The notes under the pieces were generated by a model. The model was not told where the DNA came from and did not search any database. It was given only the letters and a program-made list of their open reading frames with translations. Shown in pieces: positions 1,652 through 11,618 of a stretch of DNA of 39,693 nt (the stretch's first letter is position 1; each line of letters begins with the position of its first letter). This stretch comes from Gammaproteobacteria bacterium (lineage in GTDB: Bacteria > Pseudomonadota > Gammaproteobacteria > Steroidobacterales > Woeseiaceae): assembly GCA_030425905.1 (NCBI GenBank), contig JAUHZT010000014.1, positions 1-39,693 of the forward strand, read 5' to 3'. The position numbers were made by a program, and so were the translations under genes.

Positions 1652-2836
1652 ATGACCCCGATTAAACGCACCCTGACCCTGCTTGCGCTGGCGCTGGTTG
1701 CTTCGTGTGCAAGCCAGTCCACACTTATCCCGGCTGGCAGCACCTGCACCACGACGACGTTCGCGGTGCTCGATGACTTCAGCGGTGCCCGTCGCGGCGC
1801 CTGCGAAGTCCGGGGCGACAACAGCGTGCGCATCGAGATCGTCCCGGAAGACAGCGCGGTGCAGAACCCTAGCCCGTGGTTCGCGTTCAAGCTTGTGCCG
1901 GCACGCGCAACCAGCGCCGAAGTGGTACTCGACTACCAAAGCTGGAAACACCGCTATGTACCAAAAACCAGCGCCGATGGCGTGCACTGGAGCCCGCTTG
2001 CCGCGGATGCTGTGCAGGTTTCGGCCAACGGCCGTCGCGCAACGCTGAGCATTGCGCTGGGTAATGAGACTGTCTGGGTGGCAGCCCATGAACTGATAAC
2101 GCCGACGGTGTATGACGACTGGGAGGCTCGAATGGCCGCTCGCAGCAATGCCCGCCTGTCAGTGTTTGGCGAGTCGCGAACCGGCCGCAAGATCATGCGC
2201 CTGGACGGCACCAGCGATTCACGTGACGTCGTGTTGCTCGTCGGTCGTCAACACCCGCCGGAAGTGTCCGGCGCCTTTGCCTTCTTCGGCTTCTGGGAAA
2301 CAGTATTTGGCGACTCATCACTGGCCGCGCGTTTTCGTGAGCACTTCCAGGTGATATCCATTCCGTTGCTGAACCCGGACGGGGTCGCAAACGGGCACTG
2401 GCGACACAATCTCGGCAGAACGGACCTGAATCGTGACTGGGGACCGTTTGTGCAACCGGAAACACAACTGATCAAGACGCTGCTCGACAAGCTGGACCGC
2501 GATGGTTACCGGCTGCGCGCATTCATCGACTTCCATTCGACCAATCGCAATCTCTTTTATACGCAGGCCGACACAGACCCGACGGATCCGCCCAATTTCT
2601 CGCGCGACTGGCTGGACGCCGCACGGCCGCGCCTCAACGACTACCCGTTTACCAACGAAGATCGCCCAACTTCGGATACCGCGAACGGCAAAAACTACAT
2701 GTACAAGCGCTACGGTATTCCGTCAGTGACGTATGAAGTGGGTGACGAGATCGACCGCGCTGCCACCCGCGCTGCCGCCGCGATTTTTGCCGAAGAGTTC
2801 ATGAAGCTGTTGCTTCAGCACGCGGACCAGCAGTGA
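1652..2836 (+). CDS. M14-family zinc carboxypeptidase-like lipoprotein
   Basis: Lipobox signal MTPIKRTLTLLALALVASC; M14-type motifs RQHPPEVSG, LNPDGVANGHWRHNLGRTDLNRDW, FIDFHSTN, SVTYEVGDE. Confidence 0.82.
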   Translation: MTPIKRTLTLLALALVASCASQSTLIPAGSTCTTTTFAVLDDFSGARRGACEVRGDNSVRIEIVPEDSAVQNPSPWFAFKLVPARATSAEVVLDYQSWKHRYVPKTSADGVHWSPLAADAVQVSANGRRATLSIALGNETVWVAAHELITPTVYDDWEARMAARSNARLSVFGESRTGRKIMRLDGTSDSRDVVLLVGRQHPPEVSGAFAFFGFWETVFGDSSLAARFREHFQVISIPLLNPDGVANGHWRHNLGRTDLNRDWGPFVQPETQLIKTLLDKLDRDGYRLRAFIDFHSTNRNLFYTQADTDPTDPPNFSRDWLDAARPRLNDYPFTNEDRPTSDTANGKNYMYKRYGIPSVTYEVGDEIDRAATRAAAAIFAEEFMKLLLQHADQQ

Positions 2837-5800
2837 AAAAGGCTTTCCTGTTCACTTGCCTGCTTGCCCTGACGGCCTGCGCGCCTGAGACAGCGCCCCG
2901 TTACGACGTATTGATCATTGGCGGCACCGTCTACGACGGGTCGCTCGAACCAGGCCGCATCCGCAATATCGGGATCGTGGAGGATCGCATCGCCACGCTG
3001 GATGCCGCCGCCGATGCCGATGCACGGGTCCGCGTTGACGCACAGGGCCTGATCGTTACGCCGGGCTTTATCGACCCGCATACCCACGCGACGCGGGATC
3101 TGCGTAACCCGCTGAAGAAATCCAACCTGAACTATCTCAAGCAGGGCGTAACGACTGTTTTCATCGGCAACGACGGTGCCGGTGTAAGCGGTCGCGACGA
3201 CACGCTCGCCACCTTCAGCGCAGAGGGCATTGGCAACAACGTGGCCTTTTTTTCGGGCCACGGAGCGATTCGCAGGCAGGTGATGGGCAGTGCAAACCGC
3301 GCGCCCACAGCCACCGAGCTGGCGACGATGAAAGAACGCGTGGCGGCGGACATGGAGCTTGGCGCGATCGGGCTCTCGACCGGTCTGTACTACGTGCCTG
3401 GCAACTACGCAACGACCGATGAAGTGATCGCACTGGCCAGCGTGGCGGCCGCGTACGGCGGCGTTTACGACACCCACCTGCGGGACGAAAGTTCCTACAA
3501 CATCGGTTTGCTGGCGGCGATTGAGGAAACCATTGCCATCGCACGGAGCGCCGCTATTCCCGTGCACATCTCGCACATCAAGGCATTAGGACAGGATGTG
3601 TGGGGCCAAAGCGAAGCCATCGTCGAACGCATCGACGCCGCACGCGCCGAAGGACTCAGCGTTACGGCCAACCAGTACCCATGGCGCGCTTCGGGGACAC
3701 GTTTCAGCAATGCACTGATCCCGCGCTGGGCACTCGCAGACTCCAAAGAACATATGCGCGAGCGACTCGCGGATGCCGAAACCGGCGCAGGTATTCGCGA
3801 CGAGATGCGCGCCAATCTGCGGCGCCGTGGTGGCGCAGATGCCATGCTTGTAACGGCCGCAGAAAGCCGCTGGCAAGGCCAGACGCTCGCCGAAATAGCT
3901 GCGCAAATGGAAGTTGAACCGGTGGAGGCCGCCATTCGCGTGGTGCTGGCTGAAGACCCGTCCATTGCATCTTTTGTCATGCACAGCGACGACATTGCAC
4001 GGCTCGCACAGCAAGCCTGGGTCATGACAGGCTCCGATGGCTCAGCCGGGCACCCCCGGCTGTACGGCACTTACCCGAAGGCCTGGCAGGACTTCGTGCG
4101 CAGCGACCTGCTCAGCATCCCGCAGTTTGTGCATCGCAGTACCGGCCTCGTCGCGGACACATTCAATCTTTGCCGCCGCGGCTACCTGCGCGAGGAGTAC
4201 ACGGCCGATATTGCGGTCATTGACCCGGCAAGCCGTCCACTGAAAGGTTCGACCGGGATGTTACGAAAAATCGTGCTGCGCGACGATCGCGCCTCGCACT
4301 GGCTCGTCTTCGAGAATCCTGTCGACGTGCTGTGGACGCGCGATATCAGCGAAGTCACCCACCTGCTTGCGGCGGTCGAGGCGCGCGTCAACGACGAACA
4401 ACTCATCGCGGCGGGCTACCTGAGCTACGAAGCCGCCAGTGCATTTGACCCGGCTTTGCACACGCAAACCGGTGGGCAGCTACCGCTGCTGTGCTTCGGT
4501 TTGTTTAACGAACCTCGGGTGCTGCAGGAACTACCCGAGCCCGACGTCCGGCAGCAGCAAGCGCCGCCGTGGCAGCCTGCAACCTCTTGGGCACGCTACC
4601 AGGCCTGTATTGACAAGATTCAGTCCGAGATTGCGCTCGGCAACACCTACCAGATCAACTACACCTTCCGGCAAACGGCGCACAACGTGCACGATGCCTG
4701 GCAACTGTTTCTGCACATCGCACACGCACCCTATGGCGCCTACGTGGAACTGGACACACACAGCGTCGTGTCCGCGTCCCCGGAGCTGTTCTTCCGGCTC
4801 GACGGCGACAGGATTGTTTGCAAACCCATGAAAGGCACGGCGCCGCGCGGCACCACGCTGGTCGATGATCGTGCCGCAAGGGAGACGTTGCGCAATTCGG
4901 CAAAAAATCTTGCCGAGAACGTCATGATCACGGACATGATGCGCAATGATCTCGGGCGCATCGCCGAGCCCGGTTCGGTGGTGGCCGAGTCTTTGTTCGC
5001 AATTGAGAAGTACCCGACGGTCTGGCAAATGGTTTCGACGGTCAGGGCGCGCAGTGCCGCGAGTATTGCCAGTATTTTTGCAGCGCTTTTTCCCTGCGCT
5101 TCGATCACCGGCGCACCGAAAGCGGCGAGTATGCGCCTGATTGCAGCGCTCGAGGAGGAGCCGCGCGAGGTCTATACAGGCAGCATCGGTTTTCTGCGGC
5201 CAGGGCGAGAGGCGCAGTTCAGCGTCGCGATTCGCACGAGCTGGATCGACTCCCGCAGCGGCACTGCTCGCTACGGCGTGGGCGGCGGTATCGTCTGGGA
5301 CTCCAATGCAGAAGATGAGTACCGTGAATGCGTGGACAAGTCGCGCGTACTGCTGGGCAGCTACGCAGACCGGGGCTTCGAATTACTCGAGACGCTTCGC
5401 TGGGATCCTGCCAACAGCTACTTCCTGCTGGCAGAGCATCTTGAGCGCCTGCGCGATTCAGCCGAGTATTTTGACTTTAGCTTCGATCGCGCCGCGATAG
5501 TGGAGGCGCTTGCACAACTCGAACAATCCTTTACCGATGAGCACTACCGCGTGCGCCTGTTACTCGACCGGAACGGGACAGTGCGGACGGAATCCAGGCC
5601 GCTGCAGTTGCCCGGGCCCGCGACGCAATATCGCGTGAAGCTTGCGGCCACCCCGGTTGATGCCAGTAATCCGTTTCTCTATCACAAGACGACACAAAGG
5701 GACCTTTACGAGCGAGCGCGTGCAGCGCACCCGGAATTTGATGATGTGTTGCTCTGGAATAAGGACGGATACCTCACTGAAACCACCGTCGCGAACATCA

Positions 5801-5994
5801 TTGTCGAACTCGACGGCGAGCTGTGTACGCCACCCGTGAACAGTGGCTTGCTGAACGGCACCTTCCGGCAACAGCTCGTTGACGCCGGCCGGCTTATCGA
5901 ACGCCCGATCCATCGCGACGAACTGGGCACACACACTTCATTGCGCCTGATCAACTCTGTGCGCGGCGAATTCACGGCCGAACTCCATCGATGA
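2833..5994 (+). CDS. Composite ORF: N-acyl-D-amino-acid deacylase lipoprotein (C-terminally truncated) fused in frame to PabB-PabC
   Basis: GTG start overlaps the previous stop. Lipobox MKKAFLFTCLLALTAC; D-aminoacylase motifs PGFIDPHTHATRD, STGLYYVPGNYAT, IPVHISHIKALG, MTGSDGSAGHPRLYGTYPKAW. PabB motifs MKGTAPRG, NVMITDMMRNDLGRI, ASITGAPKAASM, YGVGGGIVWDSNAEDEY. PabC motifs YHKTT, GYLTETTVANI. Confidence 0.85.
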   Translation: MKKAFLFTCLLALTACAPETAPRYDVLIIGGTVYDGSLEPGRIRNIGIVEDRIATLDAAADADARVRVDAQGLIVTPGFIDPHTHATRDLRNPLKKSNLNYLKQGVTTVFIGNDGAGVSGRDDTLATFSAEGIGNNVAFFSGHGAIRRQVMGSANRAPTATELATMKERVAADMELGAIGLSTGLYYVPGNYATTDEVIALASVAAAYGGVYDTHLRDESSYNIGLLAAIEETIAIARSAAIPVHISHIKALGQDVWGQSEAIVERIDAARAEGLSVTANQYPWRASGTRFSNALIPRWALADSKEHMRERLADAETGAGIRDEMRANLRRRGGADAMLVTAAESRWQGQTLAEIAAQMEVEPVEAAIRVVLAEDPSIASFVMHSDDIARLAQQAWVMTGSDGSAGHPRLYGTYPKAWQDFVRSDLLSIPQFVHRSTGLVADTFNLCRRGYLREEYTADIAVIDPASRPLKGSTGMLRKIVLRDDRASHWLVFENPVDVLWTRDISEVTHLLAAVEARVNDEQLIAAGYLSYEAASAFDPALHTQTGGQLPLLCFGLFNEPRVLQELPEPDVRQQQAPPWQPATSWARYQACIDKIQSEIALGNTYQINYTFRQTAHNVHDAWQLFLHIAHAPYGAYVELDTHSVVSASPELFFRLDGDRIVCKPMKGTAPRGTTLVDDRAARETLRNSAKNLAENVMITDMMRNDLGRIAEPGSVVAESLFAIEKYPTVWQMVSTVRARSAASIASIFAALFPCASITGAPKAASMRLIAALEEEPREVYTGSIGFLRPGREAQFSVAIRTSWIDSRSGTARYGVGGGIVWDSNAEDEYRECVDKSRVLLGSYADRGFELLETLRWDPANSYFLLAEHLERLRDSAEYFDFSFDRAAIVEALAQLEQSFTDEHYRVRLLLDRNGTVRTESRPLQLPGPATQYRVKLAATPVDASNPFLYHKTTQRDLYERARAAHPEFDDVLLWNKDGYLTETTVANIIVELDGELCTPPVNSGLLNGTFRQQLVDAGRLIERPIHRDELGTHTSLRLINSVRGEFTAELHR
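4258..5994 (+). CDS. pabB: Candidate independent PabB-PabC start inside the composite ORF
   Basis: In-frame ATG at 4258 (MLRKIVLRDDRASHWLVFENPVDVLW...), AAAGG Shine-Dalgarno-like sequence at 4243-4247. Yields 578 aa, the expected size for a stand-alone PabB-PabC fusion. Confidence 0.6.
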   Translation: MLRKIVLRDDRASHWLVFENPVDVLWTRDISEVTHLLAAVEARVNDEQLIAAGYLSYEAASAFDPALHTQTGGQLPLLCFGLFNEPRVLQELPEPDVRQQQAPPWQPATSWARYQACIDKIQSEIALGNTYQINYTFRQTAHNVHDAWQLFLHIAHAPYGAYVELDTHSVVSASPELFFRLDGDRIVCKPMKGTAPRGTTLVDDRAARETLRNSAKNLAENVMITDMMRNDLGRIAEPGSVVAESLFAIEKYPTVWQMVSTVRARSAASIASIFAALFPCASITGAPKAASMRLIAALEEEPREVYTGSIGFLRPGREAQFSVAIRTSWIDSRSGTARYGVGGGIVWDSNAEDEYRECVDKSRVLLGSYADRGFELLETLRWDPANSYFLLAEHLERLRDSAEYFDFSFDRAAIVEALAQLEQSFTDEHYRVRLLLDRNGTVRTESRPLQLPGPATQYRVKLAATPVDASNPFLYHKTTQRDLYERARAAHPEFDDVLLWNKDGYLTETTVANIIVELDGELCTPPVNSGLLNGTFRQQLVDAGRLIERPIHRDELGTHTSLRLINSVRGEFTAELHR

Positions 5995-6053
5995 AGTGGG
6001 CAAGCAGCACTCGCTCGGGCTATGGTAAGTAAAGTTAACGGCAGGATAACTCT

Positions 6054-7595
6054 ATGACTGAACACACAGACCCGGACTCTCCGCTGCAATTTCTGCGGCG
6101 TCACGCCTGGCTCGTCATTCTGGCCGTTTGCGCATTGATCGGCTGGTACGCGGCGACGCGTGATCACTCCGTGTTTGCAGCGCAAATGCATTTTGGTTTT
6201 CTCTCAATCATGCCGGCACTCGCGGCGCTTGTGATCTGCTTTGTCACGCGCAATGTGATTCTCGCGTTGTTTATGGGCGTGGTCATGGGCGGCCTGATCA
6301 CAACCGACTACAACATCGTGCAGGCCTTTCTTATTCCCAGCATCGGCACCACCCGCTTTGCAGAAATTCTGCTGGTGTATCTCTGGGCACTCGGCGGCCT
6401 GCTCGGCATGTGGAACCGCAATGGTGGCGCCTGGCACTTTGCAACCTATGTTTCCGAGAACTTCGTCAAGTCACGCCGTTCGGCCATGTTTTTTACCTGG
6501 CTGATGGGCGTATTGTTTCATCAAGGCGGCACCATCAGCACCGTGCTCACGGGTACCACCGTCCGCCCGGTCGCCGACCGGGAAAAGGTGGCCCACGAAG
6601 AGCTCGCCTATATTGTGGATTCAACCGCTTCGCCGATTGCCACCATTATTCCGTTCAACGTGTGGCCCGTTTACGTTGCCGGGCTGATCACGATTCCGGC
6701 AATGAGCGCCTACATCCCCGATCGCGATGCGGGCGTTGACTGGTTTCTCGCGGCCATTCCGTTCAACTTTTACGGCTGGTTCGCGATTACCTTCACGCTG
6801 CTGTTTGCGCTGGGCAAACTGCCGTTTATGGGCAAGCCCATGCGCCGCGCGCAGGAACGGGTGCTGGCCACGGGCGAACTCGATAGCCCGACGGCGGAAC
6901 CGATGATCTCCAAGGAGCTGACAACGGTCGCGGTCGCGCCCGGTTACCAGCCTTCGCTGCTCGATTTCTTTGTCCCTATCCTCGTGCTGCTCGGCGTTGC
7001 GGTTACGCCCTACCTGATTACCGGCAAACTCATGATCTTCGAAGCATTCGGCCTCGCGCTGGTAAGCGCGGTGGTGCTGTCGGTGCTGCGCGGCATGCCG
7101 GTCAAGGAGGCATTCGATGCCGTGGTGGACGGCATCAAGGGGGTCACGGTCGGGGCCATTATTCTGGGCCTTGCCGTCACGCTGGCCACGGTCTCGGAAA
7201 CACTGGGCGCCTCGAACTGGGTGATCGAGACGAGCGCAGGCAACCTGACGGCCGTGCCCTATATTCTGCCGGGCCTGCTGATGATCATCTGCATGCTGGT
7301 GTCATTCTCGGTTGGCTCGTCCTGGGGCACCTATGCGGTCGTATTTCCGATTGCCCTGCCGCTGGCGTTCACGCTCTCGACCGATCCCACCTACGTGTCG
7401 CTGTGTTTTGCGGCAATCATGGGCGGCGCGGTCTTCGGCGACCAGTGCTCACCGATCTCGGATACCACCATTTTGTCGTCACTGGCTTGCGGCGCCGACC
7501 TTATGGACCACGTCGTATCGCAGCTCCCGATCGCCCTCACGGCCGCCGGAATGGCGATCCTGCTGTACACGGGCATCGCTTTCGTCATTATGTAG
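6054..7595 (+). CDS. NhaC-family Na+/H+ antiporter-like membrane transporter
   Basis: Multi-TM protein with STASPIATIIPFNVWPVYVAGL, GSSWGTYAVVFPIALPLA and GAVFGDQCSPISDTTILSSLA motifs. Confidence 0.85.
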   Translation: MTEHTDPDSPLQFLRRHAWLVILAVCALIGWYAATRDHSVFAAQMHFGFLSIMPALAALVICFVTRNVILALFMGVVMGGLITTDYNIVQAFLIPSIGTTRFAEILLVYLWALGGLLGMWNRNGGAWHFATYVSENFVKSRRSAMFFTWLMGVLFHQGGTISTVLTGTTVRPVADREKVAHEELAYIVDSTASPIATIIPFNVWPVYVAGLITIPAMSAYIPDRDAGVDWFLAAIPFNFYGWFAITFTLLFALGKLPFMGKPMRRAQERVLATGELDSPTAEPMISKELTTVAVAPGYQPSLLDFFVPILVLLGVAVTPYLITGKLMIFEAFGLALVSAVVLSVLRGMPVKEAFDAVVDGIKGVTVGAIILGLAVTLATVSETLGASNWVIETSAGNLTAVPYILPGLLMIICMLVSFSVGSSWGTYAVVFPIALPLAFTLSTDPTYVSLCFAAIMGGAVFGDQCSPISDTTILSSLACGADLMDHVVSQLPIALTAAGMAILLYTGIAFVIM

Positions 7596-8222: not shown

Positions 8223-9161
8223 TCACTGCCTGCGCGGCTTGCCGGGCACCCCGTAAGCACATTCGAGATCCTGGCGCGGCCACTCGCCCGCGTCAGCGGC
8301 CGCCGCATACGTTGATTGCAGGAATTCAAGCAGCGTCGCTTCAGGCTTGCTAGAGCGTCGTACGCTGTCGTAGCTCAGCACGAACTCGCCCAGTGCCGAA
8401 TTAAAACTTGCGTCCGCTGGCAGGACGCTGGCCTCGGCAAATCCCGGCGGCGCCGGATACGCGTAAGAATAAAATGAAGGTTCATCGATACCCCCGCCAC
8501 CGGGCCAGAAGCCGGCCGAACTCACTTCGTGACTGTAGGCTTCGCGGGTGACTTCGTCCGGAAGGTTCACAATGCCACCTGGGTGCGGCGGCGCTTTACG
8601 CCCGGAAAAACGCGTCACCGCCAGGTCGAAACTACCCCAGAACAGGTGCACCGGGCTCACCTTGCCGATGAAACCGGTGCGAAATTTCCTGAATACGTTA
8701 TCGATGAATACCAGGGCCCGGCTATAGCGCGTCACCGCGCTTCGGTCCCAGGGCCGCTCCTCGACATCTTCAGCAAAGGGAATGGCATCCGCGATCTCGT
8801 TCGGTCGACCGTGATAATTCGCATCCCCTCCGAGATCGCTGATCACGCGGCGAAAGCGTTCCTCGAATTCAGCAACCGAACGTTTGCGGAGTTTGAAGAC
8901 GCTCGTCTCGCCAAATGCGTTTCGGCTGATCAATCGATGGTCGACGAGATCCAGCCGAATTTCGATGCCGCCGGCATCGGGCACGACGCCGGTGCTCAGA
9001 CCGGTCGGGCTGACGTAAAGGGTTGCGTGCCAGGCGTGGTTTACCCAGGGTGTGTGGGCCAGCCGGTACTTGCCAATGATTTGGCAGTAGAGATGCAATG
9101 CCGTACAGCTATCGGACCACAAGTCGTAGGGAATCTCGGGCCAATGCTTGCTTGAAGCCAT
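8223..9161 (-). CDS. DUF5996 family protein
   Basis: KHWPEIPYDLWSDSCTALHLYCQIIGKYRLAHTPWVNHAWHATLYVSPTGLST matches the DUF5996 N-terminus as remembered; 312 aa. Confidence 0.75.
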   Translation of the reverse strand: MASSKHWPEIPYDLWSDSCTALHLYCQIIGKYRLAHTPWVNHAWHATLYVSPTGLSTGVVPDAGGIEIRLDLVDHRLISRNAFGETSVFKLRKRSVAEFEERFRRVISDLGGDANYHGRPNEIADAIPFAEDVEERPWDRSAVTRYSRALVFIDNVFRKFRTGFIGKVSPVHLFWGSFDLAVTRFSGRKAPPHPGGIVNLPDEVTREAYSHEVSSAGFWPGGGGIDEPSFYSYAYPAPPGFAEASVLPADASFNSALGEFVLSYDSVRRSSKPEATLLEFLQSTYAAAADAGEWPRQDLECAYGVPGKPRRQ

Positions 9162-9252
9162 CGAAAAGCTCCTCTAGTCCGCTTGTGCCACAGCCGACGA
9201 TCGACTCGTCGCTCAAGTTCGGTCCATCATACTGTAGCGCATTGGAAAGTTT

Positions 9253-9282
9253 TTGCACTCGATTGCGCTCGATTGCACTCGT
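9253..9282. repeat. Three tandem 10-bp repeats (TTGCRCTCGW)
   Basis: TTGCACTCGA TTGCGCTCGA TTGCACTCGT at 9253-9262, 9263-9272 and 9273-9282. Confidence 0.6.
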
Positions 9283-9300
9283 TACGCCAGGCGCAACATT

Positions 9301-9633
9301 TCACGCGTGCTCGGCCGCATTTTCGGTCGCCCATTGCTCCATCGCCTGCAGCACCGGTTGCAGGCTTCTGCCACGCGCGGTGAGCGTATAGTCAACGCGC
9401 GGTGGAATTTCACCGTAGTCGCAACGCGTCAGGAGCTTTGCGGCCTCCATCTCTTTAAGTGTTTTGGACAGCGTACGGTGGGTAATCGCGCCGAGCCGGC
9501 GCTGCAACTCGTTGAACCGCATCGGGCCTTGCAACAACCAGTAAATAATCATCGGCCGCCATTTTCCCACCAGCAGATCAAGCGTCAGTTCAGCCGGGCA
9601 GTGGCGTTCGTACTCAGGTACCTGGTCACTCAT
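9301..9633 (-). CDS. HxlR-family winged-helix transcriptional regulator
   Basis: HCPAELTLDLLVGKWRPMIIYWLLQGPMRFNELQRRLGAITHRTLSKTLKEMEAAKLL...PPRVDYTLTARG is diagnostic of HxlR, with the conserved N-terminal Cys. Confidence 0.92.
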   Translation of the reverse strand: MSDQVPEYERHCPAELTLDLLVGKWRPMIIYWLLQGPMRFNELQRRLGAITHRTLSKTLKEMEAAKLLTRCDYGEIPPRVDYTLTARGRSLQPVLQAMEQWATENAAEHA

Positions 9634-9640
9634 TTACAGT

Positions 9641-9677
9641 ATCCTTTAGGATCGTACTTGCAGAATTCTCGTACGAG
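9641..9677. promoter_or_regulatory. Candidate HxlR operator in the divergent hxlR/pirin intergenic region
   Basis: ATCCTTTAGGAT (9641-9652, 5-bp arms) and the perfect palindrome CTCGTACGAG (9668-9677) between divergent genes. Confidence 0.4.
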
Positions 9678-9740
9678 CATATATTCAGCGGCATCGCAAA
9701 ACAACACCCTCGACGCGACCTGTCGGGGCGAGGAGATGAC

Positions 9741-10616
9741 ATGAAAAAATTCGTCGGCATTATCGAGAACCAGCAACGTCACTGGGTAGGCGACGGTTTT
9801 CCTGTCCGATCACTGTTCAGCTACCACGGCGATACAGAGGCGATCAGTCCGTTCCTGCTGTTCGACTACGCTGGCCCCTGGAATTTCGACCCCAAGCAAG
9901 GACAACCACGCGGCGTCGGCCAGCACCCGCATCGCGGCTTCGAAACCGTCACCATCGTTTATGACGGTGAGGTCAGCCATCGCGACTCGACGGGAAGCGG
10001 CGGCACGATTGGTGCGGGCGACGTGCAGTGGATGACCGCCGGCAGCGGCATCCTGCACGAGGAATATCACTCACCAGGCTATTCGAAAACGGGTGGACCA
10101 TTCCGCATGGTGCAGCTATGGGTCAACCTGCCTGCGAAAGACAAAGGCACACCGCCCGCTTACCAGGCGCTCACCGCGGCAATGATTCCGACCGTCACAT
10201 TCGACGGTGGCAAGGCGCGGATTATCGCCGGCACGTTTGCAGACACGCGCGGCCCGGCACGGACGTTCACACCGGTTAACCTGTGGGACGTACGCCTCAA
10301 CGCCGAGGCCGACACCGTGTTGCCATTGCCGGCAGGCCACACCAGCCTGATTGCGGTCCTGTCCGGGCATGTCACAATCGGTCCGCGTGCAGCCGGTGAA
10401 GGCGTTGGCGAGGGCGAGATTGCGCGGCTCTCTACAAACGGAGAGGGTGTACATATCCGTGCTAACGGCGATGCTATGTTACTCGTACTGACAGGCGAGC
10501 CGATTGACGAGCCTGTGGTCGGCCACGGGCCGTTCGTCATGAACACTGAAGCGGAAATTCATGAGGCAATCCTGGATTTCAATGCGGGTCGCTTTGGCCA
10601 GATGGCGCCAGCCTGA
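9741..10616 (+). CDS. Pirin family protein (copy 1)
   Basis: GVGQHPHRGFETVTIVYDGEVSHRDSTG...GDVQWMTAGSGILHEEYHSP; cupin metal ligands HxH...HxE retained; GAGGAG Shine-Dalgarno. Confidence 0.93.
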   Translation: MKKFVGIIENQQRHWVGDGFPVRSLFSYHGDTEAISPFLLFDYAGPWNFDPKQGQPRGVGQHPHRGFETVTIVYDGEVSHRDSTGSGGTIGAGDVQWMTAGSGILHEEYHSPGYSKTGGPFRMVQLWVNLPAKDKGTPPAYQALTAAMIPTVTFDGGKARIIAGTFADTRGPARTFTPVNLWDVRLNAEADTVLPLPAGHTSLIAVLSGHVTIGPRAAGEGVGEGEIARLSTNGEGVHIRANGDAMLLVLTGEPIDEPVVGHGPFVMNTEAEIHEAILDFNAGRFGQMAPA

Positions 10617-10622
10617 ACAGCC

Positions 10623-10660
10623 GTCGCCGCGGCGCGAGCAAGCGCTGCGGCGACTCTTTA
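10623..10660 (+). terminator. Strong hairpin terminator between the two pirin genes
   Basis: 13-bp stem GTCGCCGCGGCGC (10623-10635) / GCGCTGCGGCGAC (10642-10654), one G-T pair, loop GAGCAA, then TCTTTA. Confidence 0.65.
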
Positions 10661-10736
10661 TCCGTTACGTGCAAACGACAGCATGCAAGCGCCCGGCCTT
10701 GTCAGCCACACAGTTCAACAACGAGGAGCTCGGCAC

Positions 10737-11618
10737 ATGATTGAAAGAATTATTGATAAGCAGACGCATGATCTGGGTGGCGGCTTTGAAGTTGGGCGCG
10801 TCCTGCCTTTCGCCGCACGCAAGATGGTCGGTCCGTTCATCTTTTTCGATCACATGGGGCCCAAGTCGCTCGCCGCCGGCATACCGAAGGAACTGGATGT
10901 ACGCCCGCACCCGCATATCGGAATTTCAACCGTTACCTATCTTTACGACGGCGCGCTAACGCACCGTGACAGCCTTGGTTTTCACCAGGAAATCCGGCCC
11001 CAGGAAGTCAACTGGATGGTCACGGGCAGCGGCATTACGCATTCCGAGCGTTTCGACTATGCACGCGAACACGGCGCGCACATGCACGGCATCCAGGCCT
11101 GGGTGGCCCTGCCCGATGGCGAGGAAGACGTTGCTCCGGCTTTTTACCATCACGAAGGTGCTGACCTGCCCGAGTGGGAAGAAGCCGGCTTGCGCGGACG
11201 TCTGATCGCCGGCACTGCAGAAGGCATGAAAGCGGCCGTTAAAACGCATTCGCCGATGTTCTACATGCACTGGAACATGGACAAGGCCGCCGCACGCACT
11301 CTGCCGGCCGAGTATGAAGAGCGCGCCATCTACGTCGCGACCGGCGCCGTCGAGATTAACGGCCAGACTATCAGCGCGGGACAGATGGCCGTGCTGGATT
11401 CCGGCAAGGAAGTGCGTATTACAGCGCTCGCCGATGCCATTGTGATGGCTCTCGGCGGCGCCCCGATCGGGGAGCGCTACCTGCTCTGGAATTTTGTCTC
11501 GTCGTCGAAAGACAAACTGCGTGCCGCAAAAGAGGACTGGGTTCAGGGCCGCATGAAACTGCCGGACGAGGACAATCTCGAATTCATACCGTTCCCCGAG
11601 AAGCGGACCATCAAGTGA
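10737..11618 (+). CDS. Pirin family protein (copy 2)
   Basis: DVRPHPHIGISTVTYLYDGALTHRDSLG...EVNWMVTGSGITHSERFD; metal ligands retained; ATG at 10737 with good RBS. Confidence 0.93.
   Translation: MIERIIDKQTHDLGGGFEVGRVLPFAARKMVGPFIFFDHMGPKSLAAGIPKELDVRPHPHIGISTVTYLYDGALTHRDSLGFHQEIRPQEVNWMVTGSGITHSERFDYAREHGAHMHGIQAWVALPDGEEDVAPAFYHHEGADLPEWEEAGLRGRLIAGTAEGMKAAVKTHSPMFYMHWNMDKAAARTLPAEYEERAIYVATGAVEINGQTISAGQMAVLDSGKEVRITALADAIVMALGGAPIGERYLLWNFVSSSKDKLRAAKEDWVQGRMKLPDEDNLEFIPFPEKRTIK

Follow-up and report, generated by a model that had tools for sequence, protein, structure and literature searches.

The window, by which we mean the whole stretch of 39,693 nucleotides analysed here, is one entire contig out of the 240 that make up a draft genome, which is estimated to be 88.8% complete and 4.86% contaminated. 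It carries on its forward strand a gene for a DadA-like D-amino-acid dehydrogenase (422-1639; NCBIfam PRK00711, 386.6 bits against a cut-off of 383; ATG 434 is the more likely start), a lipoprotein M14/AstE-like peptidase gene (1652-2836; Pfam Peptidase_M14, 2.7e-10), the long frame with which this study is concerned (2833-5994), and a gene for a Na+/H+ antiporter family transporter of the NhaC type (6054-7595; Pfam Na_H_antiporter, 3.3e-29). Within the genus, these genes belong to a block of the order dadA–M14–aminoacylase–NhaC-type antiporter–small cytochrome–comM. Its first gene, dadA, occupies the same place in relatives (52-62% identity), the M14 gene is syntenic in G009, G012, G028 and G005, and the antiporter, conserved downstream at 64-80% identity, lies near or adjoins the aminoacylase gene. 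The cytochrome gene and comM directly adjoin in G093 and G009; in the window they are separated by a further segment (8223-11618) that holds one gene of unknown family on the reverse strand, a short one, also reversed, with an HxlR-like appearance by eye, and two that are pirin-like. The dehydrogenase, peptidase, deacylase and transporter together suggest that the block serves to scavenge D-amino acids; no connection of pabBC with such a role is evident.

The frame at 2833-5994 runs for 1053 codons from a GTG start, which overlaps the stop of the M14 gene by 4 nt (GTGA), to a stop at 5994. It consists of the body of an N-acyl-D-amino-acid deacylase (D-aminoacylase; 2833-4257, fusion residues 1-475) followed by a complete pabBC (4258-5994, native ATG at 4258, 578 aa) for aminodeoxychorismate synthase component I and a 4-amino-4-deoxychorismate lyase domain. 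Pfam places Amidohydro_3 at residues 68-465 of the fusion, Chorismate_bind at 588-836 and Aminotran_4 at 851-1045. An open frame of this length, with both halves confirmed by profiles, is not a product of chance, and the ORF, Pfam and TIGR00553 results confirm the uninterrupted succession of lipobox, D-aminoacylase body and PabB-PabC that a sequence-only reading of this DNA had described. Two proteins normally found on opposite sides of the membrane are joined in one frame in the assembly of one uncultured bacterium. A search of the literature for this aminoacylase-PabBC fusion found nothing.

The PabBC half is whole. The curated equivalog model TIGR00553 (pabB) matches with 337.6 bits (cut-off 328.4), the lysine of the PxKGT motif is present (KPMKGTAPRG, K667 of the fusion), and Aminotran_4 (PF01063) matches residues 851-1045 at 1.6e-36. 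The lysine that binds PLP lies in YHKTT (K952) and is invariant across 13 homologues; this lysine and the class IV fold mark the segment as the PabC (ADC lyase) domain, its activity as a lyase rather than an aminotransferase being predicted. M476 aligns with the native starts of PabBC homologues (MLRRVVLRD, MLEKILLRN, MLTRILLRE), which bears out the earlier view that the half is complete from this methionine. It departs from the homologues at 2 of the 147 columns invariant in 12 of them, and is 56% identical to the PabBC of G093, a sister species introduced below.

The window's genome has two copies of PF00425, namely pabBC and a gene adjoining a glutamine amidotransferase. As the latter pair is read as trpE-trpG, PabBC is probably the organism's PabB and the only one in an assembly that is 88.8% complete. 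G093 and G123 likewise have two copies each, pabBC and one other that is read as trpE. Most other species of the genus that were checked have two separate chorismate-binding copies outside any pabBC, probably trpE and a stand-alone pabB; the pattern in the window's genome, G093 and G123, set beside these species, is as if pabBC had replaced the stand-alone gene.

The aminoacylase half begins with MKKAFLFTCLLALTAC, in which the lipobox LTAC (residues 13-16, L-x-x-C pattern) can be read directly by eye, as had been claimed before; its sister in G093 begins with MKPLFWIVLLSQLAAC. Homology to aminoacylases ends at fusion residue 464-467 in nearly all relatives. All eight relatives compared run on for about 45-60 residues past the end of the match, through a tail containing VNG ('STGV..LLVNG..VI'), so that the absence of this tail, earlier described as a family feature, holds up. 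The window lacks the VNG strand that completes the small beta domain, and only 'ASRPLKGSTG' remains before M476; RPLKGSTG may be what is left of the RPxxLSTG of the tail. At the cut point, the D-aminoacylase structure 1RJP is aligned up to its residue 449 of 496.

Upstream of the cut, the body shows every sign of constraint. H83 and H85 (the HxH of amidohydrolases), H215, H248 and D402 are invariant in an alignment of nine sequences and align with D-aminoacylase structures; we take these residues to be ligands. The window has GNDG in place of GNCG with its metal-ligand Cys. Since the Asp (residue 114) is invariant in all nine sequences, the substitution is a trait of the lipoprotein aminoacylase subgroup, not damage. 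Among 111 otherwise invariant positions the body keeps 110, the sole deviation being G455E, near the missing tail. Relative-rate tests against three outgroups gave fewer unique changes for the window than for the G093 aminoacylase (34 versus 58, 32 versus 54 and 26 versus 47), and its branch in the aminoacylase tree is the shorter one (0.25 versus 0.52); divergence at codon positions was too saturated for dN/dS. Rates not above those of the sister and a shorter branch argue against a long decay, and on this sequence evidence the truncation must be very recent, tolerated or harmless, or absent from the real genome. To call this half a deacylase remnant, as had been proposed, accordingly goes too far.

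The missing tail may nonetheless damage the protein. In predicted structures, built from nine sequences, of modest confidence and comparing two different proteins, the N-terminal beta domain of the intact sister (blocks 31-90) has a pLDDT of about 71-88, while the corresponding blocks of the truncated window protein (21-90) have about 37-61; the sister model places strands of the tail at 492-497 and 500-504. With one strand of the small beta domain gone, these models hint at a damaged aminoacylase half.

The origin of the join is best seen in G093. The two species are sisters with 99-100% support in trees of the aminoacylase, NhaC and DadA, and in G093 the order is dadA–aminoacylase–pabBC–NhaC–cytochrome–comM, with no M14 gene upstream of the aminoacylase. 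There, the aminoacylase is intact: it has about 50 extra C-terminal residues and a stop, followed by a 30-nt spacer and the ATG of pabBC (stop at 8231-8233 and ATG at 8264 of locus L066), and the two genes share a frame with two stops between them. This contig matches the UBA1844 contig DDIS01000147.1 in gene spacing (L066/L087). From the conserved 'IDP' to the ATG of pabBC there are 201 nt in G093 versus 30 nt in the window (junction, 4228-4257, from the conserved ..ADIAVIDP), a net loss of 171 nt that keeps the frame. What the window has lost is the VNG tail, the stop and the spacer, while pabBC is whole from its native start. As pabBC lies at the same place in G093, its position behind the aminoacylase predates the split of the two lineages and goes back to their common ancestor. 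Given this arrangement, an in-frame deletion across the stops yields the fusion. Elsewhere in the genus, G009, G012 and G005 have an intact aminoacylase and the antiporter with no pabBC, the antiporter being the next gene after the aminoacylase in G009 and G005. Species differ in what lies between aminoacylase and antiporter (4228-6053 in the window; 10704-11273 in locus L034): the window and G093 have pabBC there, G012 a gene for a small exported protein with a CxxCH motif, and G009 and G005 nothing.

The fusion itself was found in the window alone. In none of 60 related genomes do the aminoacylase and PabBC halves fall in one frame; their matches lie in separate places. A scan of 107 genomes of the family yielded 15 with a full-length or nearly full-length pabBC, among which only the window has a frame above 640 codons (1082 codons as open frame, against 578-639 for the others). 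Among about 90 pabBC loci checked (about 80 further loci from named genomes), no true upstream fusion was found other than that of the window. Long frames upstream of pabBC in L118, L139 and L140 looked, by eye, like read-through of non-coding or antisense sequence. Right behind the pabBC stop, the letters 'VNGRI' resembled a split-off aminoacylase tail, a reading set aside because the tail of G093 lies upstream of pabBC. When the junction was used to scan viral contigs, no relatives came up, and its peptide had no match among genome contigs, so that a second genome of the species was not found. Relatives in which the two genes are intact and separate do exist; they had been expected to speak against the join, but do not make the join in the window false.

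The join is probably an ordinary accidental fusion and possibly an assembly error. Among the options offered earlier, a deletion fusion fits best: in the sister, the two intact genes are neighbours in the same frame, separated by two stops. We consider it somewhat probable that neighbouring genes were fused by deletion, that ATG 4258 still yields PabBC and that the aminoacylase is damaged. A deletion (net 171 nt against the sister) would have taken the last 50 or so codons of the aminoacylase, its stop and the spacer, joining it in frame to a pabBC already adjacent. Starting translation at ATG 4258, the cell would still obtain cytoplasmic PabBC, its only PabB; the aminoacylase half, one strand short in its small beta domain, would be crippled. 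The join would have no designed function and be a recent by-product of genome rearrangement. Against this account stand the undecayed body, the weak site before ATG 4258 and the modest models from nine sequences. The Shine-Dalgarno-like match at that site reaches -3.5 kcal/mol, which 29% of gene positions equal or exceed; that of the unfused pabBC of G093 is also weak (-2.6), and in both species coupling may be needed for pabBC to be translated. The conflict of topology noted in the sequence-only reading is real on paper for the conceptual product, but vanishes if translation of PabBC begins at the native ATG.

The undecayed body would also be expected if, in the real genome, pabBC were preceded as in the sister by a full-length aminoacylase with its stop and by the spacer, and the assembler had dropped some 171 nt. 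The fragmented and partly contaminated draft and the restriction of the fusion to one genome point the same way, yet the gap preserves the frame, and pabBC is left intact from its native ATG. Moreover, the longest word common to the junction and the tail and spacer of the sister, found at the conserved DP codons, has 8 nt, so that no repeat that could cause a collapse is visible, the missing sequence itself being out of view. Such a local error we regard as the main rival and a serious possibility, though an unlikely one. A misjoin of unrelated or distant loci, also suggested before, is disfavoured by pabBC lying at exactly the same place in the sister and by synteny on both flanks. More doubtful is that selection maintains two proteins from one transcript, a membrane lipoprotein deacylase whose PabBC tail is useless or cleaved off, and free cytoplasmic PabBC from ATG 4258. 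Both halves are conserved, this ATG aligns with the native start and PabBC is the one PabB found in the assembly, but the aminoacylase lacks a strand, the ribosome-binding site is weak and no relative has the arrangement. We give as little credit to the idea that the only PabB gene is translated in two ways, as the C-terminal part of an exported lipoprotein and from a start inside the frame, periplasm and cytoplasm receiving different products. Least credible by far is a single working polypeptide coupling exported D-amino-acid deacylation with p-aminobenzoate synthesis: the fusion is in frame without a stop, but PabB and PabC use cytoplasmic chorismate and PabA/TrpG, with which a lipobox and export clash, a metabolic link is absent, and pabBC lies at this place in two species only and is fused in one.

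If real, the deletion fusion would provide a clear before-and-after case of how a fusion gene is born, a single small deletion having joined unrelated neighbours whose unfused order a sister keeps, and would test how a gene required for making folate survives behind an export signal. In either case the 1053-residue product should not be named as one working enzyme; if the join is an assembly error, this caution for annotation is its only relevance.

Compared with known systems, the aminoacylase half belongs to the N-acyl-D-amino-acid deacylase family, with predicted activity. In the PDB, 1M7J, 1RJP and 3GIP match it best in sequence and fold, and the nearest structures by fold are D-aminoacylases and N-acyl-D-glutamate deacylase, with which it has in common the amidohydrolase fold, the HxH motif and the other conserved His and Asp residues. 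It differs from them in its lipobox, in the Asp for Cys of GN(C/D)G, as in all close relatives, and in having PabBC fused behind it in place of the C-terminal 47 or so residues. With bifunctional PabB-PabC proteins, the second half shares the 578-residue architecture, the native start and the conserved residues, and differs solely in its in-frame upstream extension. The closest counterpart is the unfused pair of G093, which has the same genes at the same place, in the same order and relative frame, but with an intact aminoacylase ending in its own stop, two in-frame stops before pabBC and no M14 gene.
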